Part shown: one piece after another, positions 4,901-54,946 of the stretch | How the letters are laid out: each line of letters opens with the position of its first letter | How positions within the stretch are numbered: the stretch's first letter is position 1 | Origin: Siniperca chuatsi | Lineage: Eukaryota > Chordata > Actinopteri > Centrarchiformes > Sinipercidae | Reading direction: 5' to 3' | Length of the DNA: 64,000 nucleotides | NCBI RefSeq assembly: GCF_020085105.1 | Contig: NC_058043.1 | Span: 19,913,167-19,977,166, forward strand | Made by a program: the position numbers and the translations under genes | Notes under the pieces: model-generated | What the model saw: the letters and a program-made list of their open reading frames with translations, nothing else | Told to the model about the DNA's origin: nothing | Database searches by the model: none

Positions 4901-7477
4901 GACTCATGGAAGATGCAGTTCATGAGTACACAGCTCATCAAATGGCAAAGTGGTGCTGCAGACTTCAACTCCCATTACAGGATACAGGATCTGTTGCTGG
5001 TAGTTATTGCTCATTGCAATTCTCAGTAGTGGCAGTGGAGGGTGCTCCAGGTTAAACATTCCCATACCAACATCAGTGAACCCACTTTCCTGAAATCAGT
5101 GAAAGGCATAAAAACAGCAGACATCCATAATATGATCCAAACTAGTATCTTGATCGTATGAGATAAACTTTGTGGGTTTTCAATGGTGTTTTGTGTAAAA
5201 CCCATTAGCCTTCTCCATGCTTCAGTCATTTGGATACAGCCTACAAATATAATATTCTATAAATCTGACTTTTATTCTCAGACTGTCTGTGATTGCTTAA
5301 GAATTGTGGTCCCACTTGTGAACACTTGATGGCAGTGTAGTTTTAGCACAAAGCCACATTCAACAAGTGAGTGATAGTTTTCACATGGTCAAAAGTAAAT
5401 CCAAAATTAAATACAGAACCCTGAAGATTATCATGGGAGACAGTTTGACAACATTTACATTAGTGTAATACATTTGTAAAGTAGATGAATGCAGGTTTGT
5501 TGGGTGCTGAGTACTGTAATAGGCTGCTCTGATGCCAAGCGGTGAACATGACATCCCCATTAACACAGATCCAGCTCAGTGTGTTAGAAGTTTTAAACAA
5601 TTCATTTAAATGTTGTTATTTTAGAATGAATTACTTGCCCTCACATCTTCGGTCCCACTAACTTTACTGCATGACACCTCATCCCCTCTAGGACCTCTGC
5701 CTCTCTACATGCCAGGGAAAAGTCTGCTCTCCATGTGGCATTGGTGGAAAATGTGATTTAAGGTCCTGCTTGGACTTGTGGGCAGGCAATAGCTGCTGAG
5801 AGAAGCAACTTTTTCAAAAGGTCTCCACTCATTTCGCTCATATCTCAGTCACATTCAGTGCTATTTTCAGCTCCAACATGTAGACTGGGAAACTATTAAC
5901 TTGTTTACAAAATCTGTTGGTGTTCCTAAAAAATCAAACATTAACTGCCTTTGGCTTGTCATAGCAGGAAAAGCACAGGTGTTACTAAAGATGGCTTCCT
6001 TCTATTCAAGTGCCCCAGTAAGCCATGGCAGTTTGACAATGAGTCAGCATGCACAATACCAGGACCTTGAAACTGAAGCAGCTACATGGAATTCAGCCAT
6101 CAGTAATTTTAATGTTGTGCTGATTTCTACTGTGACATGTCAAAGTGTTTTCATCTGTCTCCACCGACAGGTGAAAACGTCCACTTGTCCAACACTGCAG
6201 CTCATGACAGGATATGCCCCTTTATGCCTTACTTAGTATATTAGCATGCTAACTTTTAGCATGTTTCGGTAACTAACATAGCTAGCTAGCTAACATAACA
6301 TGATAACATTCAGAGGCTAAATATTAGCCTTAGTTGTCAGTAAGCCTTCATCTTTAGAGTACCAGAGGAAGAAAATTATGTCATATATTTCATTATCCAA
6401 TCTTTATTTAAACAGGAAGCTCTTGATTTCAAGAGTACTGAGCCCAGAAATACACAGAATTGGTAAACATGTGGATAAAATCAGTGTGTAAACAAATAAA
6501 ATACATACAAGACAACTAAAAAGACACTTAAAAAAAGAAAACAAAAGAATAGTCCAGCATGAACAATACATAGAACTGTATTTTTACAAACTATTTTTTG
6601 TCATATCAGAATATTTCTGAACTGTAATGTCACCAGTCAAAAGTTACAGTAGGTCTGTAACGCATGTACATATAAGACCTTGTTTATACAATGTATGCAG
6701 AAAAGTTATAATGACAATTGTTCAATTTGGTAAATTAATACCTTTTGCAGGTAAATTAAAATGTCTAATATGTGCATTCACAGAACTGCATTTTGAAATG
6801 TATTTTTCGTAGTCATGTTTAGGCGTCATTGTGTGTCCCAATATGTATCATCATTAGCTAATACATAATGGGACAGGCTGCAATGCCTGTGATAAGGCTG
6901 AACTGAAAGTTTACACATACTCATTTTAAGTATAGAGCTCCCCCCCCCAAACTATAGTCTTAAGAAGTTTAATGAATGCAATTAACCGACAAGGACACTT
7001 AAACACTGAATTTTCACAAACACCTTGAGCTTACAAATATAAACTTACACATATATCCAAAGTACCTTATACTTACATTAGTGTATAGATATTTTACAAT
7101 GAATGGCGCACAACCTACAGTCATGCTCTGCATGCACCATAAAATAAACCCATCTCGAAATGAACAGACAGATCTTTACGGAAGAGAGAAACGTGCATGC
7201 ATTTGCAGTATTAGTGATGACAGAGGTGGAAGACATAAGTGTACTAACACTCTCCTTGGAGCTATTTGCTGCCATTGTCACTGAAGATCAGACACACAGA
7301 CTGCGCTGTGAAAAGAAATGTGAGTCAGTACTTTTTAGCAGGACATTGAACTATTGATCAAATCACACAGACACTGAGTCTCTTACTCGAACTCCTCACA
7401 TCCACTCCACACATTGTCAGAGTGAGCACACTCCATGCTGCTATTGATAAAGCAAGTATCAGAGAAGGTTGATTAGC
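4901..7477. other. Intergenic, calcoco1 to smug1
   Basis: No supported gene. The open frames here are short and lack splice or homology support. It should contain the calcoco1 promoter at its left and the smug1 3' untranslated region at its right. A 'gctagctagctaac' run near 6280 and a LINE-tail-like stretch at 6395-6560 are the only recognisable items. Confidence 0.5.
6395..6560 (-). repeat. Possible LINE 3'-tail remnant
   Basis: The words 'tttatttaaacaggaag...' followed by an A-rich stretch resemble, in reverse, the end of the LINE fragment at 15385-15785 ('...actttcctggttaaatac'). Degenerate and short. Confidence 0.35.
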
Positions 7478-14240: not shown

Positions 14241-14900
14241 TAACCCCTTCGCCTTCACCAAGCATCTGCTAGGGGACAAGCACAGTGGCAGCCTCATGTG
14301 CTCAGCTGAGGATGTGAACACTGTTCTGCACAACACTCTGAGCGACCCAGAGGGAGACCAGAAGCCCGAGCCACACAAGGCCCTTGTAAGCATACAACCC
14401 CCAATAGTTGAGTTTGCCATGAGGGAGCCCAGCTGGATAGAGGTTCAGGAAGTGGTCAAAGCAGCAAGATCAGCCTCTGCCCCAAGTCCCAACGGAGTGC
14501 CATACACTGTGTACAAGCGCTGCCTGCAACTCCTTCGGCAACTATGGAAAATCCTAAGAGTGATCTGGCGCAGAGGAAGAGTTGCCAACCAGTGGAGGCG
14601 TACTGAGGGTGTTTGGATCCCCAAGGAAGCGAACTCTAAGAACATCAGTCAGTTCAGAACCATCTCACTGCTAAGCCTAGAAGGCAAGATATTTTTCAGT
14701 ACCCTGTCATGACGACTGAGTTCCTTGTAAAGAACTGCTAGATCGACACCTCAGTTCAGAAGGGCGGGATTCCTGGAGTGCATGGCTGTTTGGAACACAC
14801 TGGTGTGGTCACACAACTAATTAGAGAGGCACACGAACACCAACAACACCAACAAGCACCACCACCAGCCAAAGACGATAACGTTCCACAGAGCCCCAGT
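14241..14900 (+). mobile_element. Non-LTR retrotransposon reverse-transcriptase fragment (second LINE type)
   Basis: A plus-strand frame from about 14241 to 14712 encodes a LINE-like region upstream of and into the reverse transcriptase: NPFAFTKHLLGDK, then APSPNGVPYTVYKRC, then EGVWIPKEANSKNISQFRTI and SLLSLEGKIFF. The last two blocks match the first reverse-transcriptase motifs of fish LINEs. After 14712 similarity continues in shifted frames (for example FLVKNC, then GIPGV-like text) with stops. This is a different clade from the fragments at 8370 and 11205. Inactive. Confidence 0.75.
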
Positions 14901-19318: not shown

Positions 19319-19492
19319 TCAGACTGCCAGCCGGCCTGGAGGGGGATGCAGGGGACTCCAGGTTGGGGGTGCAGGTGGAGGTTCTTGGGGGTATGGGCGT
19401 GGGTCGCAGCATGGCTGATTCTCTACTTTGGCTACGCTGCGACCCTGGCACAACCGCCGATGCCGCAACAGCCTGTCTGTCCGTGAAAAGTT
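19319..19492 (-). CDS. znf740: znf740 last coding exon: finger 3 (C2HC) and C-terminal tail
   Basis: The acceptor is ...tgaag|AAC at 19492, phase 0. It encodes [15 protein letters not shown], completing a C2HC-type finger whose two cysteines come from the previous exon, then a ~40-residue Pro-rich tail ending at TGA 19321-19319. The mammalian protein ends about 25 residues earlier, so this tail is an extension. Confidence 0.88.
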   Translation of the reverse strand, partial: NFSRTDRLLRHRRLCQGRSVAKVENQPCCDPRPYPQEPPPAPPTWSPLHPPPGRLAV

Positions 19493-22400
19493 CTTCAAAA
19501 TACACAAATTGGACATGGTTAATAATTCGAGTAAATGTGGTGATAAATCAATTTAAATAGTTATCAATAAATCAATCTTCATATTGCACATTTTATATAT
19601 CCAAATGCAACATAAAGTGTCTCAAAGAATGACTTTAAACAATACATGGATATCATAATTATTACATTACAATGCTTACATTACATCACTTTTTGTACAT
19701 ACCTGCTGGCACCGTTCACACTGGTAAGGCTTCTCCCCACTGTGGACACGCTTGTGTCTCTCAAGGTGGTAGCGCTGGATAAACCTCATATCACACATGT
19801 CACAAGCAAATGGCTTCTCTCCTAAAAGATCACACAAATACACAGTCAATGCATCAATTTTAGCGTCTCGTACCAACAAACTGCGTGCAAAATTTCACTT
19901 ACTAAACTTTATTTGCAAACTATATTTCCAACACTTACAAAAAGTTGGGGGGAAAATGCCCTATCAGTAAATTTCAACAGTGTAGTTTCAGGATCTGTCA
20001 ATTAATATTCTAAAAAGGCCTCGTCATCAACTCATTATGTGTAGATCAGAGTGGACTTTCTTGTTTTCATGGCCCAGATCTACGCAACATAGTGGCCCAA
20101 AAGGTGGGGCAAGTAATTTGAGGCTGGTTCAACATCCCATCAAATGACTTGACAATCCAAACTCGAGTTTGTTGTGACCCCATAGTGTTGCAAGCGCCAG
20201 AGCCTCTCTCAGTGATAAGGGTATGGTGAAGGAACGCATACCCGTATGAGTGAGGCTGTGTCTCTCCAGGTGGTTACGCTGAATAAACCTCATGTCACAC
20301 ATGGAACAAGCATACGGCTTCACCCCTACACACACAGAGCAATATATTAGCCCTACCACCCACAGGTACAAGAAATACAACTTTCAAGCTCAAGCTAGCA
20401 CTAAAATACTGACAGATTATAGCTCATCATTTCTTAATATGTGCATTTCCTTATTTTAGAAAATATGTTGAAATGTACAGACATGCAACTAAGACCATAA
20501 GTTAAACTGTGAATAGAGTTAAGTCAGATTTTAACATATGGCGGAGCTAATCATGTCTGGCTTCAAAGCAAAAACACCCAGATCTGTCATATGCACTGTG
20601 TGAGATTAACATTTAATCACTGTCTTTTCTGAAACATAAATAACATCCTCACTTAACACTCAGCATCCTCTCACCTTCCATTAATTATGCTTATATTTAC
20701 ACCACAAAGATATTAATACATAATTAATGGTAATTTAGAAAAATGTTTCCCCTACAAGTCTTTGAGGTTGAATTTGAAACTGTTATTACTGAATATTAAA
20801 GTTTCCTAAAGCCATTATCTGCTTTTAAGGTTACAAAGATTTTTTTTTCCCAAAATGTTGTAGAAAGTTAAAGATACTGTAAGACTCATTAATATTTAAC
20901 AAATTGCCTCGATCCAATTGAATTCTACCGTAAATGCAAAATAATTTTAGTCATGGTAGAATTAGGTGTTTGGTTGTTCCATGTTGATTTGCCAAAAAAA
21001 AAAAGAAGAAAAGTCCTTTCAGATTGATTCATAAGTGACACAGCAGTACAAAGACTGTTTTTAGTAATGTTGGGTTTCAACAACCCATTCTGATTCAAAA
21101 TTTAGAAGAACTGTGGATCTGTTTAGTTTCGTGCTTTTCAGTTATGCTTATTGACTTTTGAGAGCAAAGTTTAAAGCTACTGCACTTCTGTGTGCGTGAC
21201 AAAAGAGATTATTGATTTTGTGATTCTTTTCTAGTTTAAAAAAGTAAAATGACTTATAAGAAATGACGATATCAGCCCAAAATGTGCTGCAAAGGTAGTT
21301 TTTGCTTTTAACATATTTTTGATTTACTTACTTTCTTACTAAAAATTGCAACTAGGACCTAATAAGAACCAGAATTCAATAGTGGAATTTCAGTCAGATT
21401 CTGCAGGCTTGCTCAACTGAATCTAACCAACAGATTGTGTATAAATCAAAACCTGAATATTGGCCTTTAGGATTCCCACCAACACCATCTGGATCAAGAT
21501 AGAATTTAAAGTTAAAGGGGAGGGAAGCAGACAGACGCACGCTACCTCTGTGACACATGGGCCCCATTTCCACCTGGCATTAACATGCGATCTCGTTGTC
21601 CTGACTGTTCCCGCATTGTGATCGGATCTCAAAGTTCAAATTACTTAGCTGGGATTGGCGGACTTGTCAGTAGACATGGCTTCCCAGGTCAAGGGAAGCA
21701 ATGCCATGGACACGCGTCATTTATTTCTAAAATCACTTTTTGTGAGGGAAGACTTGCTAGCTACTGCTACTACTTGTAGCTTTTGCTGGGCTTGCTTAAG
21801 ATAGCAGAAAGACTGCATTTACACCTGCGCATAACGCATTAACATGCGTTTTTCCTTGTCCAGATATCATATCTAGCTACAGATTGCATTTTAATACCAG
21901 GTGTAAATGATGTAATGGTGTCGCTTGCTTTTCGCTAGCCAGGTATTAGCTTAACCAGGAGTGTGTAACACACAAGAGGTTCACACTATCTGCCAACAAT
22001 TCTGGAGGGCAACTTTCATTTTTTGCTAAGTAGCTTCACCTAGTTTCAAGTAAAGGTTACAGAAATGTGAGATGAATAGTAAATACTTCTACTACGTCTT
22101 ACAAACAGCAACTAACCTGAGCACCTACAAAAAACGTGTTCTGACTATTATTGTAACCACAATAATAGTCAGTATATCTCATATTAGCACAATAAAGAGT
22201 AAATTGTGAGCTATATAATGTGAGAAGGGCAGGTGCACGGACCCATACCCGTATGAGTGAGGCTGTGTCTCGCCAGGTGGTAACGCTGAACAAACCTCAT
22301 GTCACACATGGTACAAGCAAAAGGTTTCACACCTAAACGCAGAGCATCAATACATTATTTTCAGGACTTTTAATTTCTGTGTCACAATCCATCAATCAGT

Positions 22401-22690
22401 AAAGTACTTTAAACATTTATTTACAATTGATGGGTTGTTAACCACTTTTCACTTGCTATTTGAAATTTTCCTAAAAAGGATGCATGTGGAGTTTAGATTT
22501 TTCCTCCAAATCCAATTAAGACTACATTAAACCGTGTTGATCAAATTTCAGATCCACAACTAAACACATCACATGAGCTGATGATGTCACAGTCCTGTAT
22601 TCATTTACATGTAAAGACTTGCTTTAATAATGCATTTACACACATAATGCAGGACAGCCTAGATCAAGAAAAATGTACAACTAGTTACTT

Positions 22691-22734
<44 letters not shown>

Positions 22735-25700
22735 TGCCTCAGACAGCTGACCCTGTATCTAATATAATATTAAATACAGTCTGATCTCAGTGACATGGGT
22801 AAGGTGGGCGGACGCATACCCATATGAGTGAGGCTGTGTCTCGCCAGGTGGTAGCGCTGAAAAAACCTCTTGTCACACATGGTGCAAGCATAAGGTTTCA
22901 CACCTAAATGCAAAGTAGCAATATTAAATGACTTTACCTCAATTTTCATTCTTTACAAATAAATACCTAAGCTATTGGTTATTAACCACATATTCGCCAA
23001 TTCATGCAAAAACAAAAAGATGTGTCACATGTTTCCTTCATGTAACAGCAAAGACAACTACACAACTGGTCGTTTTAGCTATATTGCCAATCAAAATGAT
23101 TAGCCATTATTATTCTAAAGAGTTACAATCACAGTCAGGGAGCACTGCAATCAATGCCTTTACTTTTGTGTATCTTGTTAATAGCCCATTGATTTAAATC
23201 ATTCTAAAGATTATCCAAATACGTTGCTTTATCAGCATTGTTAAAAGCACATTTCAATGTGAAAAGATAACACCAACATACATTTCAAGTAACTGAGCAT
23301 TTCACCACTAGTGATCCTGCCTATTAAAAAAGGGTTGATCAAGTAAGATAATTTCTGAAAAGCGATTTGTAAGAACTGTGGTGACCAAAAATGCAGGCAC
23401 AAGATGTGGCCAAATGTGTCAGTATTGCTGGTTTATACAGCCTTTTTAGTGAATTGTTATAAAAAAAAAAAAGGTGCTAAATGTTCTAGAGGGTATCATT
23501 TATTATTATTGTATGTAAATTGCCTTAACCTACTTAGAGTAAAGGTTACAGAAATGTAACACACACACATACTTTGCTGATATTAGCACAATAAAGACTA
23601 TGTAATAATGACCTACAAAATGTGAGGGGCAGGTGCACTGACGCATACCCGTATGAGTGAGGCTGTGTCTCGCCAGGTGGTAACGCTGAACAAACCTCAT
23701 GTCACACATGGTACAAGCAAAAGGTTTCACACCTAAACGCAGAGCATTAAGGTATTATTTTCAGACTTTGTAATTTTTGTGCGTGTTCACAATCCATCAA
23801 TAAGCAATATACTTTAAATACCTATTCAGAATTGATGGGTTGTTAACCACTTTTTTCAATTGTTTTGAAATTTCCTTTGCAAGAAATTAATTCTTGTTTT
23901 TAATGGTTGTTTTTCCTCAAAATCCAATAAAGAATACATAAAACTGTGTGAACCAATTCTCAAATCCACAACTTAACACATCACATGAGCTGATGATGTT
24001 GCAGTCCTATATTTCTTTACACATTAAGACTTGCTTTAATGTCTTTACACACATAATGTAGGGTAGGCTTGATCAAGAAATCTTTCTACTGATCAGTTTA
24101 AGAGTATACTAATGACTACCTTAGATGGCTGACTCTGTATCTAACATGATGTAATAACAGTCTGATCTCAGTGACATGGGTAAGGTGGGCGGACGCATAC
24201 CCATATGAGTGAGGCTGTGTCTCGCCAGGTGGTAGCGCTGAAAAAACCTCTTGTCACACATGGTACAAGCATAAGGTTTCACACCTAAATGCAAAGTGGC
24301 AATATTATATTACTTTGCCTCATTTTCCCTTTTTTTAAATTTAGGAATTAATATCTACACTATTGGTTATTAACCACAGAATTGCCAATTCATGCAAAAA
24401 CACAAAACTTTCTTTTTAAATATTTTCTTTATAATGCCTTTATCCATTTCATAGTGTTGTAGTTACAAACAAACAAACAAAAACTAAATTTATGGTTAAC
24501 CTGCTCAAATAATAATGGCTAACATCAAACAGACTAGGAAACCTTGTTTATTCATAATGACATTTCCCTTAAATGTAACACTGAAATTAAATGTGCACAC
24601 TGATTTCTAACACTGAATGTCATGGGCACGGTGCACGGACCCATACCCGTATGAGTGAGGCTGTGTCTCGCCAGGTGGTAACGCTGAAAAAACTTCATGT
24701 CACACATGGTGCAAGCATAAGGTTTCACACCTAAACGCAGAGCATCAAGAGAATTATTTTTGTGTCTCTGCCACCAAGAGAAAATAAATAAATCTGTACT
24801 CCCATTTTATAACTTAGGAGTACCAATCTGGACTAAATTGTTATCAGTGGTTAATAACCAATGTCATACCCTAAAATTACTTACAAGGGTACAATATGAT
24901 ATAATAAGATGCTTGTTTCAAATTACAAAATTCCCAGAGGGCATCTAAAATCCACTTACACAACACATGAGATGATGATGTCATGTATTTGATATTACTT
25001 TTGAATAATTTGTGTATAAATACATAGACTAGATCAAGAATACAGATGTTGCAGCATCCTAATCTTGTGACAGGGTTAAGATTGGCTGACGCATACCCAT
25101 ATGAGTGAGGCTGTGTCTCGCCAGGTGGTAGCGCTGAAAAAATCTCTTGTCACACATGGTGCAAGCGTACGGCTTCACCCCTATACACACAAAGTACCAA
25201 CTTTAGCATAAAACACTCAACTGCCAAAAATGATCGACATTAAACTTTACTAATTGCTTAGTAAAGTTTGGGTGCACTTATCAGCGCTGTTTACACTGGA
25301 AATTCCAGCACACTTCAAAAATCTGCTTTTCCAATTGGAAATGACATTTTCACATCTGACTTAAGTTTAAATGTAACTGCTTAAGGCCTAAGGCCAAAGT
25401 TTGAATTAGAAAAATTGAGGGATAATGAAAATATCCTGTGTAGAAAGCAAAATTAACTTAACTATTAATTAATTAACTTCAAACCTAAAAAACAACCAAA
25501 TGACCAGACAATTAATTGAGGCGAAACCAAAGTCCCTAGTGGACAAATTCCAACTAGCACAATAGCAAGTTTTTCACACGATGCCAATAGGTGCTTATGT
25601 TCATGTAATTTCAACATACCGCATCCAGATTTCTGGAATAGATGTGTTTAATGTAAATACTTGAATTTTTGTAACGCTGATCGCAGAGGTTAGACAATTT

Positions 25701-28700
25701 TAGGCAGTTGGTAAACAACTATGCACAACACATTAAGACTGGACATTTGTTTGTAGAGCAACTCTTGTGATTTAACTTAAACTCGTTTATAGTAATGGAA
25801 ACTGCTCCTAAAAAACCATAATACAGAACCTAGCTTTTGATTTTATGCAAAAAGAAGCCATTAACTCTGCTCTCTCTTCAAATTTAAAAATTGTACTGTA
25901 AAAGCCAACAGGCAAAATAAAGAACATCCTTATACAAAACCTGTTACCAAATATGATAGACAATGAAACTAAACTATTACTATATAAAACAGAGGATTAT
26001 GTTATTTCCTCACCATTACTTTGAATGTGAAATGACACAATGACTAAGCTGTGTGAGCAGTCAGCTCTAACTTTGCATGTTTTAATTTTTTACAAGAAAA
26101 AAAAAATTCTCTGTGTGAATTCTATTCTAAATATAAGCTAAATATGAAGTCCCATTCACATCAACTGAGACCCCACAATGTTTTCCCCCCATACAGGTCT
26201 AGCTCCCCACCAGGCCACATTACATAGCCTTAATTCAGAATGATAATTTCCACAACTGCTCCAAAATGAACAGGACTCTCTGTGTCATTACCTGGAAAAT
26301 CCTTGAGTCCTTTATAATGGGAGCTACAGCTAATCGGATTCCTGTTTATTTTTAATTGCACAAATCTAGAATTGATCAGCTGTTGGGAGTCACACGCCTG
26401 CAGCTCCTTCCCAGTAAACGCCTTCTTGACCCAGTTTTTCCATTCTTGCAGTTGTTAAAATTCTATGTGATAATTCAAGTTTGATTCATGCTTGTGCTTC
26501 AAACCACATTTTTAAAAATAAATCAATATTTCAAGCACTTTTGTGAGAAAGATTCTTCATTACATCCAGCTATTGGGGCTGACTATGTACTCCATGCTGT
26601 ATTATGTCAAATCAGAATTTCTACTTACAGCTGAGCTGATTCAAATAAATGCTACAAACCAAAGAGTGGTGTTGGCATTTTTGCGTCATGGTCATCATGT
26701 CATTTCATATAAAAAGTATGGGCGGAAGTATTGTTATGCAAGTGCTTATGAAGCTCCTTGCAGATGCTACATGAAATATTAACACTTGTTAATATAGAGA
26801 CAGAATGCAATACAAACTCGAGTTTGAAGCAGCCATGTAAACATTAATGCGCAAGCATGACTAAAATCAGGGAAAGAGAGGGTCAAGGTTGAAAAAAATT
26901 AGGACATACCTGTATGAGTAAGACTGTGTCTCTCCAGTTGGTAACGTTGTATAAACCTCATGTCACACATGGTACAAGCATACGGCTTCACCCCTAAACA
27001 GAGCACAAGAATGTCTGATGAAGTTCATGAAAACCAAGATTTAAAAAGACATCGTGAAATGCTTTCAGCTTGTTTATTATTGCATGCTTTATTACAGACA
27101 CAATTCTGTTAGAGACATTACACAAAAAAAAGACTTTAAAAACCTGCAGACATCAAGAGTAAGGTGCATCATCAATGAAGGAGAAATATGGCTTACATGC
27201 TACAGTTTGGACCAGCTTGATTAATATTCAGTCATCCTGCAAATAAACTGTTGATGGTGGTGAAAAACTTGTTGAAACTTGGTTTTTCAAGTTATCCCAT
27301 GCTCAAGATGCACCATTTCACTATTTAGTCAGGCTGAACATTCTTGTATTTGCCTGAAAAACTCTTGAGAAACATAGCCTCTTTTCCTGACATTTTAGAC
27401 TATTGATGCCTGCATTTAAAACTTTTTAGTGTAATGTGCTTTTTATTGGGTATGTGATATAGTATTCAACAATACACATGCAACAGTACCATTACAATGT
27501 TCACACAAAAGAAGGTAACTGACAAGGGAGAGAGTCACTTTTTCAGTGGACAGTTTTCCAACAAAGCCTAAAAATTCTAATAAACATTTTTTTAGAAGGG
27601 GAAATTTATTTACCAACAATGGCATAATTATGGTATTGTATATAGAGGGAATAAAAAAAATTCATGTGTAGGTTGTTTATATGAAAGGTTTCATAGTGAA
27701 AGGGGAACAATTAATTCAAGCATACCAGTATGAGTGAGGCTGTGTCTTGCCAAATGGTAACGCTGGAAGAACCTCATGTCACACATGGAGCAAGCGTATG
27801 GCTTCACCCCTAAACGCACACAGTACCAAACTTTAGAAAAGTGTTCTCATGAACTATGTACACAAAATATGTCATTTTACATACAGTAGTCAGTGTTATG
27901 TCATTACAAGGTCTCAAGTATTTTCATGGCCAACTAGTCTCTATACATACAAGAAATAAAATGTTATGTCAACCCTAAAAGCAGTTAGCAAATACAGTGA
28001 GTACACCAGAAAAGAAAAAAAAATTATAATAAAATCGACTAGAGCTTAAACAATCCACATTCAAACCTTTCATATTTAAGGTATTGAATGTGGATTGAGT
28101 AATAAAAATTACAATTTGCTTTGTGTCAAAGTACTCTCACAGGTAGGTGATGCCTACACACAAGGGCAAATATCTACAATCCCTGATGCTGTCAAGTGAG
28201 AGGGATAAATAAAAAACTTATACCCGTATGGGTGAGAGTGTGTCTTGCCAGGTGGTATCTTTGGAAAAATCTCATGTCACACATGGAGCAAGCATATGGC
28301 TTCACCCCTGCACACACAGAGCAAAATATTTTGTAAAAACAGCACAATGAACTGAACAGGACACACTCATTTACATCACGTATCCAGACATGCCAAAAGC
28401 AGTGGCACCAGTATGATGTAACAGTAAATGCATTTCGCTAACATTTTATAATCTGTCGACATGCATGATAAAGGGACCTCAATGAAAACGTCTTTCTACT
28501 GAACTCAGTGCAGCTTTTCAATGCCGACATGCATTGCAAAGGCTGAAAACGTCTTTAGACACAAGTCAAGGTGTAATTTACAGGCACTGCTGTGGAGGTA
28601 CTGTAGCTTGAGAAAATCTGTCCAAAATAGTGCCTGAAAGGGTTAAGCCATAAAACTGAAAGGCACTCCTCCCCAATAGTTAAAACTGCTTGATGCTTAT

Positions 28701-31700
28701 GAATATTTTAAAAACCAGACTACAAGTCATTATATAAACAAGGGAAAGATAAACTTCAGTAAACTGGGTATTTGGGCACTAATGTAGCAAAGAAGGGTGA
28801 ACCCATACCCGTGTGAGTGAGGCTGTGTCTTGCCAAGTGGTAGCGTTGGAAAAATCTCATGTCACACATGGAGCAAGCGTATGGCTTCACCCCTACACAC
28901 ATAAAAAAGTATGCAAATGTAAGCTAGAAACAGAAAAAATAAGTTTCAACACATAACCATCAACTCTTCCCTTAGAATAGCTCTTTTGCTTCTACACATT
29001 ATATCATTAGCCTGAGAAAATAGGCATTTGTGTTGTATTGTGACCACGTGGGTTATTTCAGTCAAACAACAACAAAAAAAACTATCTTAAAAAATTAGGA
29101 GTAATGAACAAATTAATTGCGCAGAACAAAGTAGAGCATTCAGCAGGGGAAAAGCTGCAGTTTTATACATTCAGGTGCCCCACGTATGCATGTATTTACA
29201 TCAAGAGCTAAAAATGGCATGTTTTATATTTTACCATCCTAATACATGTCTGGATACAGCTTTGTGTTTCTGAAAATGTGAATATTTGAAGCTGGTAGTC
29301 ATTTTAGACACTCTAAATCTCTGTTTATACTGCTATGAGTGATAAAGTTAAGGCACTTCTAAAACACCACTACCTAATGAGCTAGGGTAAGCAGACGCAT
29401 ACCAGTATGAGTGAGGCTGTGTCTTGCCAGATGGTAACGTTGGAAGAACCTCATGTCACACATGGAGCAAGCGTACGGCTTCACCCCTACATACACAAAG
29501 TATCAACATATTAGCTAAGACGTTCCTTAAGCATCAAAGGAAAGCATCATTCACAGGCATTAAATCACTAGGACCTGGCAGACATTACAGATTCCAATCA
29601 AGCTTCATGTGAAGGGGTCATTTTTTTAATTTATTTTTTTTTACTTCTAATTAGTAAATATCTTCTGTTATAGGGAGCGGTCATTTTCAAAGAATCTGGT
29701 GTACATTATAAAACTAAAGCAGCAACAGGATATAAGCCAAGCATGTTTAAAACAAGACATACAAGTCAGCAGCAAGATGGTAAAGAAACGTCTAAGACGG
29801 TGATCACACTGGCCAGCTGAAGCAGAAACTTAGCACACTAGCACACTTCTCCACTGTTCACAATTGCAAGTGTCAACAGCATTTTTCAGCACTGTGGTGA
29901 GCATATTTGTTGCCATTTACTGCAAATTGGTTTAACGTCTATATAGTGCATATTAATTAAATTTATGGTGGCATGAAAGTGTGTGTTGCTTTGAAGTGTT
30001 ACAAGTGTGCTTGTTTTCTAGCACTCCAAAGTGATGATCTGCCTTAACTTTCAAAAGCTTCCAATCTGATCTCCGCCATAAACTTACAGCAGAAGCATCT
30101 GTATAAGCAACAGTGCAACTATATAATAAAATCAATTTAAAAAGCCAGACAACGACAGCTAAGACACATGAGCTGTGCAGCCATTAATCTGCATATATAA
30201 TAAGTGTGGACATCAAAGGACTATTCCCATAATATACCATGGCCTAGGTTAATCGGCTACTTCAATATGGCTGGATCAGGCAGGAGGGCATTAACAAAAA
30301 CTGTTACCCAATGTAAAATATTAACTTCAAATTCTAACTTAAATAATTAATTAGCTAATTTAAACTTTCTAGTAAAACCATGCACAACCAGATTTTCTAA
30401 ACACTTGAGTAAGCTAGTCTCCTGAAAAATGTGTCTGCAAAATTATATTATTTTGTCCTTAATTCATTGTGACCAGTCAGCCCCATCTCTTATACTGTGG
30501 CTATGACGCAATGTCGATTTCTTCAAAAATCCTAACTATGATGGAGAAATCCATTGATAGTAAATATTGTATCTCAGTTAATGCGACCGGATATGCAAAA
30601 TGTGTAGAACTAACGTACACTACTACGCTACGTCCACAATGTATGATAGCTAACAGCTAGCTTTATATCTTCAGCTCTGCTAGCATGATAAAGCACCAGT
30701 AACAATATCCTTGGAGAATAAAAAATAGAAAAACATAAAGCCAGAGTAAATTTTGTTGAGCCGCAATGGTACAAGAGGGATAATACACTTTGAGGGGTCC
30801 ACGGGAGCTTTTAGTTCATGTCAGGTGTTTACTTACATCTATTCATACCATGCATTACAATAAATGGGCCACAATTGGACATGTTAAACATCAGCCATTG
30901 ACGATGGTGATGATGATTCAACCCTGTAGTAATTCTAGAGGCTATTGTCTCAACTGTTGTTGTGTTGGACTGCAAAAAGATGTTTCTATATTTTGTCCAC
31001 CCAATTCAACAAAAGGATTTATACGTTTCTTAACAGTAGGATGTACTCCAGGTCTTTTGTATTAGATTGTCTTATACTGTATACATATAACTTTTATATT
31101 TCAACGTACTACTGATATTTTTATAAGTCTACATTTTCTAATGATAAATGGTTGAGATCAGGTGCATCTGGGAAAAAGTCTATGTTGAGGAAAAACAATG
31201 GTTTAAAAAAAGGCATGAAATCCTTGAGCCAAACACTGATCCTAGGACTCCTTAATACGGGATAATGAATAATCCTTTTATGATATGCAAAATGCAATAC
31301 TACAGAACTGCTTAAATGTTCTCTTGACCAACAGTCCAACATATAAAAGGTTACTGTAGGATTTTTACAAGACTTTTCTGATCAACTCCTAAAAGGCTGT
31401 TTTGGTCCTGCATGTTTGCTTGTATGTTGTTTGTGTGGTTGTCCAGAGTGTATATGTTTTTGTTCTTAAGCCTCTCCTGAATAAGAACTATTGATCTCAA
31501 TCAGACTACCTGATTAAATAAAGTTTCTTAACTTGAACTGGGTACGGTAAATGGACGCATACCCGTATGAGTGAGTCTGTGTCTCTCCAGGTGGTAACGC
31601 TGGAAAAACCTCATGTCACACATGGAACAAGCGTACGGCTTCACCCCTACACACACAGAGCATAACATTATTAGCTATTCAGTCTATCAAAGAAGCGAAA

Positions 31701-34700
31701 ATGTGGAGAAACAAAATCAGAAAATGTATTATGTTGAAAATAGAAAGAACAGATGCAGTGTTGCCACAAAGAGCAAATGCTTACTCAAGCCACTGGGATA
31801 TTAGAATAAAATAAAATATTTGTATACATAAGTATATATAAACCATGCTAACTGAGATGGGTAGATTTGGCCAACAGTTTACTATTGGTGCATTGCTTTT
31901 GGTGAATACTGGGGCAGTAGTCACTGACTTGGAAAAACGATAAGGTTGGAAGTTGACTTACCCACAGCATACTTCTTAAACAAATGAAAAACAAAGAATT
32001 TTGTGTGAAAGGGTGCAACGCAAATATTGACACTATGCAAATGTTTTAACTCAAGTCCTCAATTTTCATTGTATAAAAACAAGAACATAGTCCTTTGATG
32101 TCCATGCAGTTGTTTTCATTGACAAAGTAATATTTACATATAAAAATTATAAAACAAATAAATCTAGCATGTTTTTTGTGGCCTGTGCTTGGAGGCTTTC
32201 ACATACATACACTGGGGTCCACTTTCAAGTCCACTATCAAAAAGTCTTGTTTACAGAACCGTTTATCATTTGCCAATATAATTGATATAATTTGTTTTTC
32301 CCAGTTGTTTCAATAATATCTTATTTAATACTGATACAAATCTATATTTTTATATCCAAGAAATGCACACAGAAAAGTGACAAAAATATTCTGAATATTC
32401 AAATAGTAGCACAAGTACCTTTTGTAATACATAGTGAGAATTATTTTTCTCTTTCAACAGACAATACCATACTTTGACAAAATTAATATGGTCGCCAATG
32501 TGTCACTACTGCTAGTGCTTTAATGAGTTTCAACTTAACATACTTTCAACTGGTTTGTTAACATTGTTTGAGGAAACCAATATTGTGAAGCCAAGTGGTT
32601 CTCTTGAATATTAAGAAAAGTTTTCCAGCACAGTCTCCTTGTAAACTCAAAAGTTCTACAGGGACTGCATGCTGCAAAGATTTTCTGAAGTCAAATCATC
32701 CAGACCAAGACATAGCAGACTAAGAATAAAGCATCCAGTATGCTTCAACAGAAGTGTTTGTCGGATGGTCAAACAGTGTGGGTGGTCAGATGTGGTCTGT
32801 TGTACTTGTGACCACAACCAGCTGTGATATAGCACTGCCAAATAGTGCACTGTGAAGTGTTGTACTGCACAAGGTGTTTACAGAGCATGCAGCAACTGCT
32901 GGACGGCAGAACACGCAGGATTATTAGCCTGGGTGTGGTTACTCTTTAGTGACCACACCATGTAAAGACCAGTTTATCAAGCTGACATTTGCAGGACCCA
33001 ACAGCATTTACACGAACAACACAATTTCAAGTGAACAAAGAACCTCCTATTTGCCTTGTTAAAACAATTTAACAACAAAACAAGTTAAAACGATGGGCCA
33101 AAAACGGCCATGGGCCAAACAATATCAAAGTATCACAGTTGAAGACAGAAAGAAAGTAGTTTTTACAGACAAATAAAATTTTTAATTTGCAAAAAAAATT
33201 TATCACAAGAGAGGCTAATTTCTCCATCCACAGGCACCAGAGCTCAACCCAACTTAATCTGGAGAAAAGGAGGAATGCGCCTCAAACATCTCTGGGATCC
33301 TCTAAAATAGTGCTAAAAAAATTGTGGATTCTCAAATCCTGCAAACATTTCTACATCTGATGCTAGTCACAATGTAAGCAATGATTAAGGCAAATAATGG
33401 ACATCCAAAAGGGGAATAAAATGTATCATAAATGTTGAAACAACAGTTTTTAATAGTGGACTCTGGACTATTGGACCGCACTGTATTACATCGCCTTCTG
33501 TAAATTTTTCCTGGTGTTGGGGGACCAATATTTATGAGGCAAATACTGTGCTTTACATTTTGGGGTGAACAGATTTTGGGGGGTGGCTTTGTTGGAAATT
33601 ACTGTCCACAGACAAAATGAACCCTGAGCATCTGTCCATTGATTCAAGTGACAGACTACAGATGTAGTCCGATTTATGTAATATGGGTACGGTTAAAGGA
33701 CGCATACCCGTGTGAATGAGGCTGTGTCTCTCCAGGTGGTAACGCTGAATAAACCTCATGTCACATACGGCACAAGCATACGGCTTCTCCCCTAAACCGA
33801 AGAGCACCAGTTTTAGTTCAAGTCCCCACAGATACCACCAATTAGCTGTGAGGAAAAAGCTATTACCAAACAAGGTTTTTAAGCAGGCCATTGCAAAACC
33901 TTACAGTTGCTGCACACTCCTAGATTCAGTCCAACTCAAGCTTTCAGGGCCTCTTTCAACAAATGATTAATGTAATCAAGCATTAAAAGCTGTTTTGCTT
34001 AACTGCAAACGCGACTTGTTCGAAGCATAACTCATACCTGTATGAATGAGGATATGTCTCTTCAGGTGGTATCCACTCCTAAATGCTCCGTAACAGTGAT
34101 CACAAATAAAGTTTTTCTGCACTTTGGATGATGGACCATTCTCATCCCCACCTGTGCCCTAATGAGGACAGTAAAGAATAACGGTTCAACATTTGTTTCA
34201 AATGCCATTTTAACAGTGCACTAATAATATAAACTAAGAACCAGTGCATTTTACCACAAACACAATCTTTCAAACATACCCACCCACAACTGCTCAGGAC
34301 CTGATGAAAATCTAAAACTCCTGTGAAATTTCAGTAAATGTAAGACATATTATGATTTCTACTACACTCTAAAGACTTTATATTTTTAATGGTTTATCTT
34401 TTCTAAAACCCAAGTTATCTTTAACATTTGAATTGAGAAATACCCCACAGTCCCTTCCGATGGCCTAATGCCCTCATGTTACTGCCCCCCGTTATGCACA
34501 CAACTGCAGTTATTGTGCTCCGCTTCACTCTGCTCCCCTCCCCCCTCTTTCCTCTCTAGAGATCCTCCACCCCCTCCACATCTTCCCTGAACTCCTCCCC
34601 CCACAAACAAAAAGTGCACACATGAAAGCTCCAAGTCAGGCGCACTTGAATAAAGTGAAATGCTTTTACAAAAACATGTGCAAGTAGCTAACGACACGTT

Positions 34701-35733
34701 TGAGGTAATAAGGAAAAATGTAAATGAAAAAATAATAGCAGAGACCATTCCCTATTTAGCAACCACAGCCACTGACCTTCCCACCCCTTCCCTCTTGTTC
34801 TCTCACTTTACAGGGCGTTACTGATTTCCTGTTCTTTTTTTTCTGCTGCATGTCCTCGTTGGCCCTCATCTCCTTCTCGTCCAGCAGGCGGGGAGCTTGG
34901 AATTCACCTTCCTTCCGGATAAGCTACAGAGCCAGAAAAAGTAAATTATTTCCTAATTTCAGATCTGTTAGCTTTAAAACAGATTATCTGAACATGACTA
35001 AAATTAAATGATAAATGTGGACCTCTATTATGTGCATTTTTTGCCACTGCCAGCTGAAGAAGCCAGTGTTAAATAGTGTGGGTTTGTACATTTTTACATT
35101 TTGATTTTAGTAAAAGCCAACAATGATTTGAAACTATTTTAATAATTTTCATCCATATACTGTGCTGGTTAGGGCAAGGTTTTGTCCATCTGAAACAAAT
35201 CTAAATTTGAATAAAAACAATAAAACTGTTGTTTCTGGAGGGATAAGGACAATGGGATATGTGGAGCTTCTAAAACTGTTTGCCCTTACCTATAACCTGG
35301 TAGTGATTATGTCAATATGTTTTTCTGTCCTTAAAAGCTTGTATGACATAAATTGGAATATGAGTTCATACGTGAAAACTAAACAAAAAACAATAAGTGG
35401 GGGTTGTTTTAAAGTAGAATAAATCATCATGACTACATTCAGTGGGAAAGTCCTCCCACACTGAAATGTTCAATTCCATAAAGGCGATGGGTTTACACCC
35501 TTCGCAATATTAAAAGCATATAACAGCCCCATTGCCCAGCGGGTCCTAACCAGGGGTGGACAGCTCATTCCAGATGGGAGGATCATATGGCTCTGGGGAC
35601 CACGGTCAGGGCCCTCCCTTTGTGGTGGTCCATGGCCAAGTGGAGCCATCATTTTTTTGGGCGGAGCGGCCATGGAGCTGGCCTGCATCAGGGCCATACT
35701 GGAGAGGACAGCTTCGCAGCCAAGCAGCCCCGC
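19319..35733 (-). CDS. znf740: znf740 homologue with an array of 14 single-finger cassette exons (N-terminal start exon not located)
   Basis: Nuclear C2H2 zinc-finger protein; mammalian ZNF740 binds C-rich DNA. Constant exons: 35733-35551, 34923-34777, 34158-34038 (finger 1), 19821-19703 (finger 2 and start of finger 3), 19492-19319 (rest of finger 3, tail, stop). They match ZNF740 in order: an N-terminal AGLLGCE...KKMM block, a basic middle region, finger [19 protein letters not shown], finger [19 protein letters not shown] and the C2HC finger [19 protein letters not shown]. Joined alone they encode 247 residues plus the missing start, close to the mammalian protein. Between fingers 1 and 2 lie 14 exons of 84 nt, one finger each, all phase 1/1 with intact splice sites. 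Including all of them gives about 639 residues and 17 fingers. The linker in the cassettes is TGVKP instead of TGEKP except in the first. The exon at 35733 starts at an acceptor in phase 0, so the initiator Met lies in an unseen upstream exon. No frameshift or stop is seen in any cassette. Confidence 0.92.
19703..19821 (-). CDS. znf740: znf740 finger-2 exon (constant)
   Basis: 119 nt, phase 1 in, phase 0 out. Encodes [28 protein letters not shown] and the CERC half of finger 3. This is the only copy with the ancestral [15 protein letters not shown] continuation, so it is the orthologue of the mammalian finger-2 exon and the likely source of the cassettes. Confidence 0.93.
20242..20325 (-). 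CDS. znf740: znf740 cassette exon 14 (single C2H2 finger)
   Basis: 84 nt, phase 1/1, acceptor tgtag|GG, donor G|gtatgc. Finger core [17 protein letters not shown]. The only cassette with Asn at helix position 2 (Tyr in the others), a DNA-contact position. It lies 1.9 kb from its nearest cassette neighbour and 420 nt from the constant finger-2 exon. Confidence 0.9.
21564..21909. mobile_element. Short palindromic MITE-like element in znf740 intron
   Basis: Left end 'ccatttccacctggcattaacatgcg' and right end '...attttaataccaggtgtaaatg' are inverted copies. Internal 'acacctgcgcataacgcattaacatgcg' repeats the same words. This pattern matches a common teleost non-autonomous DNA element. No coding capacity. 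Confidence 0.65.
22249..22332 (-). CDS. znf740: znf740 cassette exon 13 (single C2H2 finger)
   Basis: 84 nt, phase 1/1. Finger core [17 protein letters not shown] with linker VKPF. Base-for-base identical to cassette 11 (23649-23732), with homologous flanking intron: the product of a recent duplication. Confidence 0.9.
22692..22733. repeat. (AAT)n microsatellite
   Basis: About 14 perfect 'aat' units in a znf740 intron. It is absent from the matching place in the duplicated unit at 24.1 kb, so it arose or expanded after that duplication. Confidence 0.95.
22820..22903 (-). CDS. znf740: znf740 cassette exon 12 (single C2H2 finger)
   Basis: 84 nt, phase 1/1. Core [17 protein letters not shown], ending in HMG instead of HTG. 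Differs from cassette 10 by one synonymous base; same peptide as cassettes 10 and 8. Confidence 0.9.
23649..23732 (-). CDS. znf740: znf740 cassette exon 11 (single C2H2 finger)
   Basis: 84 nt, phase 1/1, identical to cassette 13. Acceptor tttag|GT, donor G|gtatgc. Core [17 protein letters not shown]. Confidence 0.9.
24201..24284 (-). CDS. znf740: znf740 cassette exon 10 (single C2H2 finger)
   Basis: 84 nt, phase 1/1. Core [17 protein letters not shown], end HMG. The second exon of the middle two-exon duplication unit. Confidence 0.9.
24647..24730 (-). CDS. znf740: znf740 cassette exon 9 (single C2H2 finger)
   Basis: 84 nt, phase 1/1. Core [17 protein letters not shown]; the Lys before Phe is unique to this copy. 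First exon of the third two-exon unit (with cassette 8). Confidence 0.9.
25097..25180 (-). CDS. znf740: znf740 cassette exon 8 (single C2H2 finger)
   Basis: 84 nt, phase 1/1. Same peptide as cassettes 10 and 12 ([17 protein letters not shown], end HMG) but with several synonymous differences, so it is an older copy. Confidence 0.9.
26910..26993 (-). CDS. znf740: znf740 cassette exon 7 (single C2H2 finger)
   Basis: 84 nt, phase 1/1, donor G|gtatgt. Core [17 protein letters not shown]. Gln replaces His at helix position 3, a main base-contact position, while the zinc ligands are intact. Isolated by 1.7 kb from cassette 8 and 0.7 kb from cassette 6. Confidence 0.9.
27726..27809 (-). CDS. znf740: znf740 cassette exon 6 (single C2H2 finger)
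   Basis: 84 nt, phase 1/1. Core [17 protein letters not shown]. Same peptide as cassettes 4 and 3 but with many silent differences. Confidence 0.9.
28224..28307 (-). CDS. znf740: znf740 cassette exon 5 (single C2H2 finger)
   Basis: 84 nt, phase 1/1. Core [17 protein letters not shown] followed by TLTHTG; Thr replaces the usual Ser between the zinc-ligand histidines. Confidence 0.9.
28809..28892 (-). CDS. znf740: znf740 cassette exon 4 (single C2H2 finger)
   Basis: 84 nt, phase 1/1. Core [17 protein letters not shown]. Peptide identical to cassettes 3 and 6. Confidence 0.9.
29403..29486 (-). CDS. znf740: znf740 cassette exon 3 (single C2H2 finger)
   Basis: 84 nt, phase 1/1, donor G|gtatgc. 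Core [17 protein letters not shown]. Cassettes 3 to 6 are spaced evenly, about 500-600 nt apart, which suggests a second duplication cluster. Confidence 0.9.
31370..31540 (+). repeat. LINE 3'-tail remnant in znf740 intron
   Basis: 'attgatctcaatcagactacctgattaaataaag' resembles the LINE tail at 15785 ('atctcaatgggactttcctggttaaata'). Short, non-coding. Confidence 0.45.
31563..31646 (-). CDS. znf740: znf740 cassette exon 2 (single C2H2 finger)
   Basis: 84 nt, phase 1/1. Core [17 protein letters not shown] followed by RLTHTG. Combines the Phe of the middle cluster with the Glu of the ancestral finger 2; about 2 kb of intron on each side. Confidence 0.9.
33225..33480 (+). mobile_element. Possible degenerate Tc1/mariner transposase remnant
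   Basis: 'caccagagctcaacccaac...aatctgg' reads like a decayed version of the SPDLNPIE-type block of Tc1 transposases, and the text after it resembles the transposase 3' end. Heavily mutated, in the intron between cassettes 1 and 2. No terminal repeats were identified. Confidence 0.35.
33708..33791 (-). CDS. znf740: znf740 cassette exon 1 (single C2H2 finger)
   Basis: 84 nt, phase 1/1, acceptor tttag|GG, donor G|gtatgc. Core [17 protein letters not shown] with linker GEKPY. The only cassette that keeps the canonical Glu linker and the one most like the constant finger-2 exon; 246 nt from the finger-1 exon. Confidence 0.9.
34038..34158 (-). CDS. znf740: znf740 finger-1 exon (constant)
   Basis: 121 nt, phase 0 in, phase 1 out. 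Encodes a Gly/Asp/Ser-rich lead, then [20 protein letters not shown] and ILIHTG, the counterpart of mammalian ZNF740 finger 1. It ends ACA G|gtatga, so it can be spliced in frame to any cassette or straight to 19821. Confidence 0.92.
34777..34923 (-). CDS. znf740: znf740 basic linker exon
   Basis: 147 nt, phase 0/0, donor AAG|gtcagt, acceptor tgtag|CTT. 49 residues, starting [18 protein letters not shown], then a Lys-rich QQKKKNRK patch (possible nuclear localisation signal, inference) and EGRGGK. Confidence 0.82.
35551..35733 (-). CDS. znf740: znf740 N-terminal exon
   Basis: 183 nt, phase 0/0, acceptor tttgcag|GCG, donor CTG|gttagg. Begins [16 protein letters not shown] and includes [11 protein letters not shown], aligning with the start of mammalian ZNF740 (a short Met-Ala-Gln lead precedes that block there). 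The initiator codon is expected as a few codons on an upstream exon. An in-exon ATG (MALMQ...) is an alternative start. Confidence 0.8.
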
Positions 35734-35844: not shown

Positions 35845-38600
35845 CATCAACGACAACATCCTGAGTGACACAAGACTGCAAATAAAGTTATTTGTCACCA
35901 CTTTGGTGTTCTCAAAACAAACCCATTTCATATGGTCGCGGACTGAGCTGCTGGGCAGATGTGACATTGCTGTGGTGTATGTGAGCGCAGGGACAGGGGT
36001 GGGGACAAGGTCATCCAGAGATCCGTCAGTCAGGATGGTCGGGCTGGTGGGAAGCCACACCCACCTCACTCATCTAGCATTAAAACTGAGGAAGAGGAGG
36101 ATGTGGATGAAACAGACAAACATTAAATTACAACAGCATCCCTCGCTGTCTTTATCGTTACATATTCCATTAACTCCAGTTAGGATGGCAATTTTTCACG
36201 ATGACATTTAAAGATCACAAAATATACCGCGCATAAATATTTTTTTTTTGTTGTTTTCATTTTTGTTTATAGAAATTAGTCAGTATACTCACCATTACAA
36301 AAACTGACAGAGTAATAAAATGATCTTGTTTATTTTAGGCAAAAACAGCCCAGTCTAATACGGTGCTACACCTAATGCTTCCTTGTATAAGACAAACCTC
36401 CGAGCTGTATGAAATTATGTGTGTTGTGTTTTGTGGAGTTCACCAATAGTTTTAAGCGGTAGCTCTGGACCGCTATTGTAAAAACTATACACTTCCAGTG
36501 CTGAATGCATAACAAATGAAGCAGATGAAAGTACAATCAAACTTTCAGGAATAGATAAGCACATTTCTTCGTATAACTCTGGAACCAGTTCAGATTCAGA
36601 ACCAGTTACCGATACCAAACACTAACCATTAAAAAGGTACCAATTTTCCCCCCAGCCCTACAATATATAATTACTACCACTAATCCAAGTTTCTCCACTA
36701 CGGTACACACATGGCAGTAAACTGCATGCTGACAATCCAACCACAAAGCACAACTGGATGTTATTGATATACATGAAGTAGTATAGTAGATTCATTTGTA
36801 CTCATATATACAGCTTTCATGTTTTGTAAGAACTGACATTTTATTTATGAGTGTTCGTATGGCACGAGGGAAACAAGTGGAACCGTGAAGACAAGAGGGC
36901 CCTGCACAGAAATTTAGGAAAGGGAAAGAATCTAGGGGGAAAATCTCTACAGCACAACCAGACAAACTACAGAATAATATAATTTTTTGAGTATGATTGA
37001 TGAGACTAGTATTTTTAAATGAGACCTTCCAGCACGTCAAAATATTCAATTTGTGCATACATTTTTTTTAAGAAACATGTGTTGATTATTTGTATAACAT
37101 TAGATAAAAGCTTCCTAAAATACAGAACAAAATTCAACATATATAAAAGCACAAAAATTTTACTGTTATACAGTAAAAGCCTGGAATTTTTTTTTTTAAT
37201 CTAAGTTTAACTGATTAGTGTCAATCAAAACAAAAACTCAAAATGGTTAAAGTTTTACATTGACATGCTTATACTACTTTGCATGTTGCTGTTGAAAAGA
37301 GGACTAATAAGTTCCTGTTCTCTGCCTTACTGTAACATACAACCAATCACACCACCAATGTGTAAAAAATTATTTGATTCAAATGTCTATATTGGTTTTC
37401 AGTGTATTGGATTTTGAGTGTAACATAATTAGGTTTTACGTAGGACAAAGACGTACTGTAATTAGATAACATTTAAGTCATAAGAATAAAAAACTGCTCT
37501 GAAAGTATACCGAATATGGCAAGAAATAGTGAACAAAGTGTGAACAGGTAAATAATGTGAGGGGAGCAGTTATAAATTTATTAACTGCTGTGAGTCTGTT
37601 TGTTGTTTTCATGGAAGTTAGAGACAAGCCCTCATTCTGATTTTAAAAATTATTACATAATTCACCTTGTACAGTACAACTCTGGAGCAAAACTTTTGAG
37701 AAAACGTTAAATCTCCTATATCTATATAATTCTATTTAGTTAAATGGGAAGAAATTTCGAAAGTATAAGCCTACCTGGAAAATGAGTAAGAGTGGTTGTA
37801 ATTCTGCACTTACTGTTTAAGGGGACTGCAAAAGCTAACATTTAACAACTGGGCTATAAATATTCAAGCAAGCAAAGCCCTGGGTCTGCACCCATGCTAA
37901 TCCGGTACATTAAATCATAGTTTTGCATTTTGAGAAGGGATTTTACAAGTATGTTACGAGGAGGCCACGACTTTACTGAAAGAAATATTGCTCTGTCTTG
38001 TGATGGCTGCTCCAGATTTAAAGCTACGTTTTGGCTTAGTTTGTTCTTTTCTCCAACTGTAGCACAAGTTAACTGTTACGCTTTTGTGCCATCATAAAAA
38101 GGTTAACGTTAGCCAGATGGAGGCAGAGATATACTTTAACGCTACAGTGCTTTCGCCATTGGCGTTGGTTAGCTAGCTAATGTTGCTAGGAAAATAGACA
38201 GCTAGCGTAACGCTAATTAAAACACTACGAGGCTACGCCGTATAGTTGGGTTTTTTGCTGTCGTTGTCGAAATGCCATAGCCTTAACATAATGTTGCTTT
38301 GAAAATAAATATGTCATTGTTTCTGCACTGACTGAGCTGGCCGTCGTATGCCAACCTAACGTTAGTTTTGCTGATGTTGAACAAGCTGGCTAATATCAGC
38401 TAGCCAGCAGCTAGCTGCTCGCTGGCGCCCTCGCTCACTGAAATGTTAGTAATATAATTGTTTTTTTTTTTGGCCAACCTGGTCATCGGTTTGATACAGT
38501 AGTTTTAGAAGAGTATGTATCTTGCAGACTGGACCAATGCATATTTTCACCATGATAATACTATAAGACACAAGCTCAACTGGTTCAAGACTGAGCGATA
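35845..38600 (-). other. znf740 first intron(s); no exon confirmed
   Basis: Mostly AT-rich. A locally GC-richer segment at about 35850-36085, open on both strands, may hold an unrecognised exon. 38100-38420 is crowded with 'gctagc' and 'aacgttagc' words, common around teleost gene starts. I found no exon ending in a Met-Ala-Gln-like lead with a phase-0 donor. Confidence 0.4.

Positions 38601-44652: not shown

Positions 44653-54946
<10,294 letters not shown>

Follow-up and report, generated by a model that had tools for sequence, protein, structure and literature searches.

Many C2H2 zinc fingers in tandem are known from the KRAB genes and the fish FiNZ genes, in which the fingers are encoded by one exon, are joined by TGEKP-like linkers and have contact residues that diversify. 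In the TFIIIA gene the fingers are found in several separate exons, an old and non-repetitive arrangement without tandem amplification, and clusters of the Dscam type consist of many tandem exons of the same phase that are used in a mutually exclusive manner and have docking pairings. For KRAB proteins a separate exon usually carries the fingers (PMC12539977); in the passages used here this statement concerns KRAB proteins, and ZNF740 is not named in them. A closer system is piccolo b of teleosts (pclob), where a zinc-finger exon is repeated 8–16 times in one of two duplicates (Nonet 2012, PMC3484663). According to the parts of that paper cited here, reverse transcription polymerase chain reaction (RT-PCR) and RNAseq of the zebrafish gene showed that each repeat is spliced in, that products of skipping are few in head samples and that some skipping occurs in other tissue samples, and the author was unaware of other extensive domain amplification in one of two teleost duplicates (PMC3484663). 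Here we describe an array of tandem single-finger exons in a znf740-type gene of Siniperca chuatsi; they are called cassettes below, a name that is not meant to imply that they are skipped. The window, that is the whole stretch of DNA analysed, comprises 64,000 nucleotides (contig NC_058043.1, positions 19,913,167 to 19,977,166, assembly GCF_020085105.1), and the positions given below are those of the window. No report of this znf740 array was found among the matches listed from open-licence PubMed Central full texts.

Fourteen intact and constrained cassettes in one znf740 copy

The cassettes are present and intact, constrained in their protein sequence and, among the five members of the family that were recovered from the genome, restricted to a single one. 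The original prediction, made before the present analysis, had placed 14 exons of 84 nt between two constant finger exons, and the count holds: all 14 are located on the minus strand between the constant exon F1 (34038–34158), which encodes finger 1, and the constant exon F2 (19703–19821), which encodes finger 2 and the start of finger 3, both of them at the positions first assigned to them. Each cassette is exactly 84 nt long, is preceded by AG and followed by GTAT, has phase 1/1, and contains an open frame with both cysteines and both histidines, so that the claims of intact splice sites, one common phase, no stop codon and one whole finger per exon apply to 14 of 14. The cassettes are, as had been suggested, tandem coding exons within a znf740-type gene.

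In the direction of reading, cassette 1 (33708–33791) is the only one with a GEKP linker, and is followed by cassettes 2 (31563–31646), 3 (29403–29486), 4 (28809–28892), 5 (28224–28307, with the weakest donor, GTATAA), 6 (27726–27809), and 7 (26910–26993), which has the strongest donor of all cassettes and a Q at helix position 3. The second half of the array is made up of cassettes 8 (25097–25180), 9 (24647–24730), 10 (24201–24284, with 1 nucleotide different from cassette 12), 11 (23649–23732, identical to cassette 13), 12 (22820–22903), 13 (22249–22332), and 14 (20242–20325), the last one with N at helix position 2.

The remainder of the gene, also on the minus strand, begins with a coding piece MSHLPSSSVRDHMKW (35923–35967) that is likely part of the first coding exon, the upstream limit of which is not fixed, and contains the residues SVRDHMKW, which are also present in the translation of the paralog on C10. 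It is followed by the exons N1 (35551–35733, 183 nt) and N2 (34777–34923, 147 nt), which in tblastn show 44% identity over 81 columns and 49% over 43 columns to the paralog, and the gene ends with a last coding exon (19319–19492) that contains the rest of finger 3 and the stop codon. The three constant C2H2 fingers are thus spread over three exons, F1 (CDHCYGAF..), F2 and F3 (CERC..), and N1, N2, F1, F2 and F3 all have counterparts in the C10 paralog, with 80% identity over 35 and 85% over 33 residues in F1 and 90% over 40 residues in F2. The gene is named for its likeness to mammalian ZNF740, which has three fingers, whereas the present gene encodes up to 17. When all exons are joined the frame is open, with 17 finger matches and 627 amino acids counted from the Met of MALMQ, and the frame is kept in 2000 of 2000 random subsets of cassettes. 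The proposed range of 3 to 17 fingers is accordingly sound as arithmetic, and the subsets tested stay in frame.

A search of the whole genome with the F1 exon (719 Mb, 65 contigs, all 59 candidates scored) gave five F1-type genes at E ≤ 0.001. The C10 paralog has a 487-nt intron between F1 and F2 that is without a cassette, and three further genes (on C12, C20 and C21), which are presumably ZNF148/ZNF281-like, each have one 84-nt single-finger exon of phase 1/1 between F1 and F2, the borders of these middle exons having been set by eye. The array had been described as very unusual for its layout of one finger per exon; the 14-fold amplification is indeed unusual, but the layout itself is present in these three relatives, and it is therefore the amplification that sets this copy apart. 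With the cassette finger as query at least 35 genomic matches were obtained, 150 of 900 first-look candidates being scored, and among these 15 belong to the present gene (the 14 cassettes and F2), one is F2 of the paralog at 70% identity, and the other 19 show 64% identity or less. A spliced retrocopy of the cassettes, which would have pointed to their use, was not present among these matches.

An ungapped profile trained on the 14 cassettes themselves and run on both strands of the window scores the cassettes at 126–143 bits, F2 at 77 and F1 at −9, and nothing in the rest of the 64 kb is above −49 bits on either strand. Gapped blastn with E up to 10 as the limit yielded 418 pieces, of which 195 are outside known exons, and the best of the latter is a 14-nt match with E 0.045. 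By both searches the 14 copies in the window are intact, and none besides them can be recognised as decayed. The pooled ratio of nonsynonymous (pN) to synonymous (pS) differences per site is 0.144 over all 91 cassette pairs, with a range of 0.075–0.25 in a codon bootstrap of 200 replicates, and third codon positions account for 654 of the 1005 pairwise differences. When neutral evolution was simulated on the cassette tree at three divergence scales, all 14 copies remained intact in 0 of 3000 runs at each scale, the mean number of intact copies being 1.0, 1.3 and 1.6 and the maximum 3, 10 and 12. Since the model ignores gene conversion the simulation overstates the case somewhat, and conversion could preserve copies under weaker selection than the simulation implies. 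The sequence comparisons support the cassettes as genuine coding exons under purifying selection.

The exons are 77–100% identical to each other. Mean ungapped flank identity over all pairs is 0.73–0.77 in the first 10 nt, 0.34–0.46 at 10–30 nt and 0.24–0.31 further out, so that the background level is reached roughly 30 nt outside the exons. The longest repeat is a two-cassette unit that is present twice, at 23577–24406 (cassettes 10 and 11) and 22178–23018 (cassettes 12 and 13), with a whole span of 22178–24406. Between the two units 167 of 168 exon positions, 91 of 100 positions in the near flanks and 424 of 542 intron positions are identical, the introns thus having 118 differences (21.8%) plus 51 gap columns, and silent sites are less different than introns (1 of about 34 versus 118 of 542, p 0.004). 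In cassettes 10 and 12 the identity extends 44 nt beyond the donor. This pattern looks like short conversion tracts alongside selection. An assembly artefact was considered and judged unlikely, since even in this longest repeated unit the introns have diverged too far for an assembly duplication to be a likely source. Cassettes 2 and 14, at a distance of 11 kb from each other, have 131 nt in common with 91% identity (31540–31670 and 20219–20349) with an identical stretch of 15 nt at the acceptor, and their exons differ at 5 of 84 nt, which is fewer than between cassette 2 and any other cassette.

Pairwise pS among the cassettes has a median of 0.45 and a maximum of 0.71, and between the two znf740 copies it is 0.58 for F2 and 0.94 for F1, each value being based on about 15 to 17 silent sites. 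As the divergence among cassettes approaches that between the gene copies, the older cassettes would seem to be of considerable age, and their presence in other fish is to be expected. Cassettes 8–13 are younger, with a pS of 0.17.

Origin of the cassettes

Compared with F1 and F2 of its own gene, each cassette starts F2-like and ends F1-like. In the cassette consensus the informative sites of the exon are F1-like in 3 of 28 cases before nt 68–71 and in 7 of 7 after it, and a one-sided permutation test for a chimera gave p 0.0005, which is the floor with 2000 permutations. The single cassettes gave p 0.0005 to 0.003 in all 14 tests, which are not independent of each other because of the common descent of the cassettes, and the break was placed at nt 68–71 in 11 of 14, and at nt 68–73 in cassette 2. 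Such a structure could have arisen if the finger exons F1 and F2 had paired out of register and crossed over, leaving a chimeric exon with the acceptor and finger body of F2 and the last codons and donor of F1. As this exon would be self-contained, with one finger and phase 1/1, it could be multiplied without a break of the frame. Further unequal crossovers would have added cassettes, on one occasion or more two at a time, and some of the cassettes were probably homogenised by short gene conversion. The comparisons thus support, as far as sequences can indicate, a chimeric founder that was spread by unequal crossover with some conversion. The full explanation, in which such a founder was amplified to 14 cassettes that are kept by purifying selection and are likely spliced into a poly-finger protein, appears to us probable, with considerable room left for other accounts.

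Several observations weigh against the chimeric founder. The break falls at nt 46–50 in cassette 5 and at nt 74–75 in cassette 7, and the test uses about 7 informative sites near the end of the exon, where a donor is required and the linker is constrained. The same break test applied to the middle exons of the C12, C20 and C21 genes gave p 0.065, 0.15 and 0.03, and a tree of the 84-nt exons resolves the source finger weakly, the nodes that matter having supports of 42 to 82. At the protein level cassette 1 moreover matches the C12 middle finger at 19 of 28 residues, which is nearly the similarity to its own F2 (21 of 28). The founder might instead be an ancestral single-finger exon in common with ZNF148/ZNF281, which the present znf740 copy retained before its amplification, with no new chimera. 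The 84-nt finger exon of phase 1/1 at the same site in all three relatives would agree with this origin, as would the residues common to cassette 1 and C12, but at the DNA level the cassettes are closer to their own F2 (58–66 of 84 nt) than to the three middle exons (41–52 of 84 nt), their tail is F1-like, and the helix of the middle exons is KYLLQR where the cassettes have RY(H/Q)L(A/E)R, or RNHLER in cassette 14. We therefore hold descent from an ancestral exon to be rather unlikely and prefer the chimeric founder.

Splicing, finger number and predicted DNA contacts

The cassettes are most likely spliced into the znf740 mRNA, many of them together, which would give a poly-finger protein with up to 17 fingers, and skipping of some cassettes would give shorter isoforms. 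The splice-site scores, calculated with splice-site matrices, tell in part against such use. Twelve of the 14 cassette donors score 4.4–6.4, with 1.9 for cassette 5 and 9.6 for cassette 7, compared with 8.0 for F1 and 9.6 for F2, and the donors of cassettes 5, 8, 10 and 12 (4 of 14) are under the 95th percentile of the regional GTs, which is 5.0. The cassette acceptors score 3.8–10.8 versus 9.5 for F1 and 8.2 for F2, 2 of 14 being under the 90th percentile of the background. These scores leave room for skipping and would weigh somewhat against an efficient inclusion of every cassette. Downstream of the donor many cassettes have in common the intronic sequence GTATGCGTCC..ACC.TACCC, located within the first 30 nt (e.g. 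20212–20241), which outlasts the other intron similarity and might represent either a splicing element or a footprint of conversion.

How many cassettes enter one mRNA is where the readings part. All 14 might always be included, giving one protein of 17 fingers (about 640–655 amino acids) with an unregulated finger number. The conservation of 14 of 14 cassettes and the open frame of the full joining speak for this, and so does the zebrafish precedent, where splicing includes all the amplified pclob exons and products of skipping are few in head samples, but the donors of most cassettes score below the constant ones with the matrices used, pclob exons are skipped in some other tissue samples (both statements from the cited parts of PMC3484663), and nothing in the sequence forces inclusion. 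We regard a constitutive array as quite possible, if a little short of an even chance. A graded inclusion that produced proteins of 3 to 17 fingers, for G-rich tracts of varied length with the same letter preference, on exons of F1/F2 chimeric origin, is a more tentative proposal that we offer with some doubt. In an array of the Dscam kind one cassette would be chosen per mRNA and all isoforms would have four fingers, and such clusters typically consist of tandem exons of equal length and the same phase. The first and last introns, however, when paired with the 120-nt flanks of 12 of the 14 cassettes, have no complementarity above shuffled sequences (mean energies are near those of mononucleotide shuffles), and, with predicted contact residues that hardly vary, it would make little difference which cassette is chosen. 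Moreover, the exon lengths are multiples of 3, so that the frame would not remove products with two cassettes, and all 15 introns from F1 to F2 are at least 246 nt, which leaves no obvious steric block; we consider mutual exclusion very improbable. No more credible is the idea that the cassettes are unused relics or pseudo-exons, their similarity being upheld only by gene conversion or recent duplication. Several weak donors, the 44 nt of intronic identity in cassettes 10 and 12, and the conversion-like deficit of silent differences in the repeated unit would be in line with relics, but decayed copies are not recognisable in the window, pN/pS is 0.14, no neutral simulation among 3000 kept the set intact, and if conversion acted by itself, silent sites would be homogenised as well, whereas their median pairwise pS is as high as given above. 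The preferred reading thus remains that of constrained exons that are probably spliced in, many together.

The predicted contact residues are Q at position −1 in 14 of 14 cassettes, Y at position 2 and H at position 3 in 13 of 14 each, and R at position 6 in 14 of 14. The linker is GVKP in place of GEKP in 13 of 14 cassettes, and three cassettes end in M and not in T. According to the usual recognition code a finger of this kind would prefer a GGA- or GGN-like triplet. A preference of this type for each predicted finger would accord with the sites of ZNF740 itself, which are G/C-rich. The motif is not printed in the passages of PMC5414179 and PMC11350041 that were used. Since the contact residues are nearly invariant, it is the number of fingers and not the specificity that would vary, and the array would be expected to make binding to a G-rich, repeat-like tract longer or stronger at unchanged specificity. 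If the finger number does vary between transcripts, the gene would offer a direct test of finger number at constant specificity.

Neighbourhood and comparison with known systems

Three neighbouring genes were recognised in the window. A CALCOCO1-like sequence (1437–2027, minus strand) was matched in Pfam, and SMUG1 (9791–10144, minus strand) and a LIM exon of the EPLIN/LIMA1 type (53834–54946, plus strand) were found by sequence matches to the PDB. CALCOCO1, SMUG1 and LIMA1 are neighbours of ZNF740 in human 12q13, and all three are found together here. CALCOCO1 was the one Pfam match among five neighbouring reading frames, the other four giving none, and Rfam gave 0 matches. An open frame at 14296–14712 (plus strand) has by eye the look of a retroelement fragment and has no match in Pfam. 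When the window was compared with about 100 kb around the C10 paralog, two short matches were obtained besides the znf740 exons. One of them, 5979–6116, is similar over about 130–140 nt to a sequence downstream of the paralog (L009, 2890–3019), and with stops in 5 of 6 window frames it is probably a repeat or a conserved non-coding element; the other, 628–751, is a short similarity between the two paralog regions (L018, 886–1015) and is probably a repeat as well, stops being present again in 5 of 6 window frames. Both matches look like repeats and thus do not show a duplicated block, and the term paralog rests on the exons of the gene itself.

Like the KRAB and FiNZ genes, the present gene has many tandem C2H2 fingers with TGEKP-like linkers, but each cassette is an exon of its own, and the contact residues have not diversified, positions −1 and 6 being invariant and positions 2 and 3 each constant in 13 of 14. 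It resembles TFIIIA in that introns separate the fingers and differs from it by the tandem amplification. With the Dscam clusters it has in common many tandem exons of the same phase in one gene, but docking pairings were not detected where tested. The ZNF148/ZNF281-type genes C12, C20 and C21 have the same order, F1-middle-F2-F3, with the middle finger in an 84-nt exon of its own with phase 1/1, but they contain one such exon where 14 are found here, the helix is different, and their DNA is less similar to the cassettes than F2 of the gene itself. The founding chimera is apparently still readable, and the unexpanded paralog and the three relatives with a single exon can serve as controls from the same genome.

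The closest parallel is pclob, where one copy of a duplicated fish gene has tandem finger exons of a single phase with the remainder of the gene largely unchanged, and where unequal crossover was likewise proposed for the amplification (in the parts of PMC3484663 cited). The same arrangement is found here, with tandem exons of one phase in one of two paralogs and none in the other. Amplification of a zinc-finger exon in one teleost duplicate was thus already known from piccolo b (same passages of PMC3484663), and the znf740 array is a further case of this kind in a different class of finger. In pclob the finger has four CxxC motifs and is split across exon borders, and the zebrafish exons are 702–1350 bp (PMC3484663, as cited), whereas the znf740 cassettes are not of this Piccolo/Bassoon type but of the DNA-binding C2H2 type, with a whole finger in each exon, all of 84 nt, and a founder that is apparently a chimera of two fingers. 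To judge from these features, what is apparently new compared with piccolo b is the different finger class, the whole fingers, the constant exon length and the readable chimeric founder, and the znf740 array would represent a second route to poly-finger proteins, in which one finger per exon is multiplied inside a conserved regulator.

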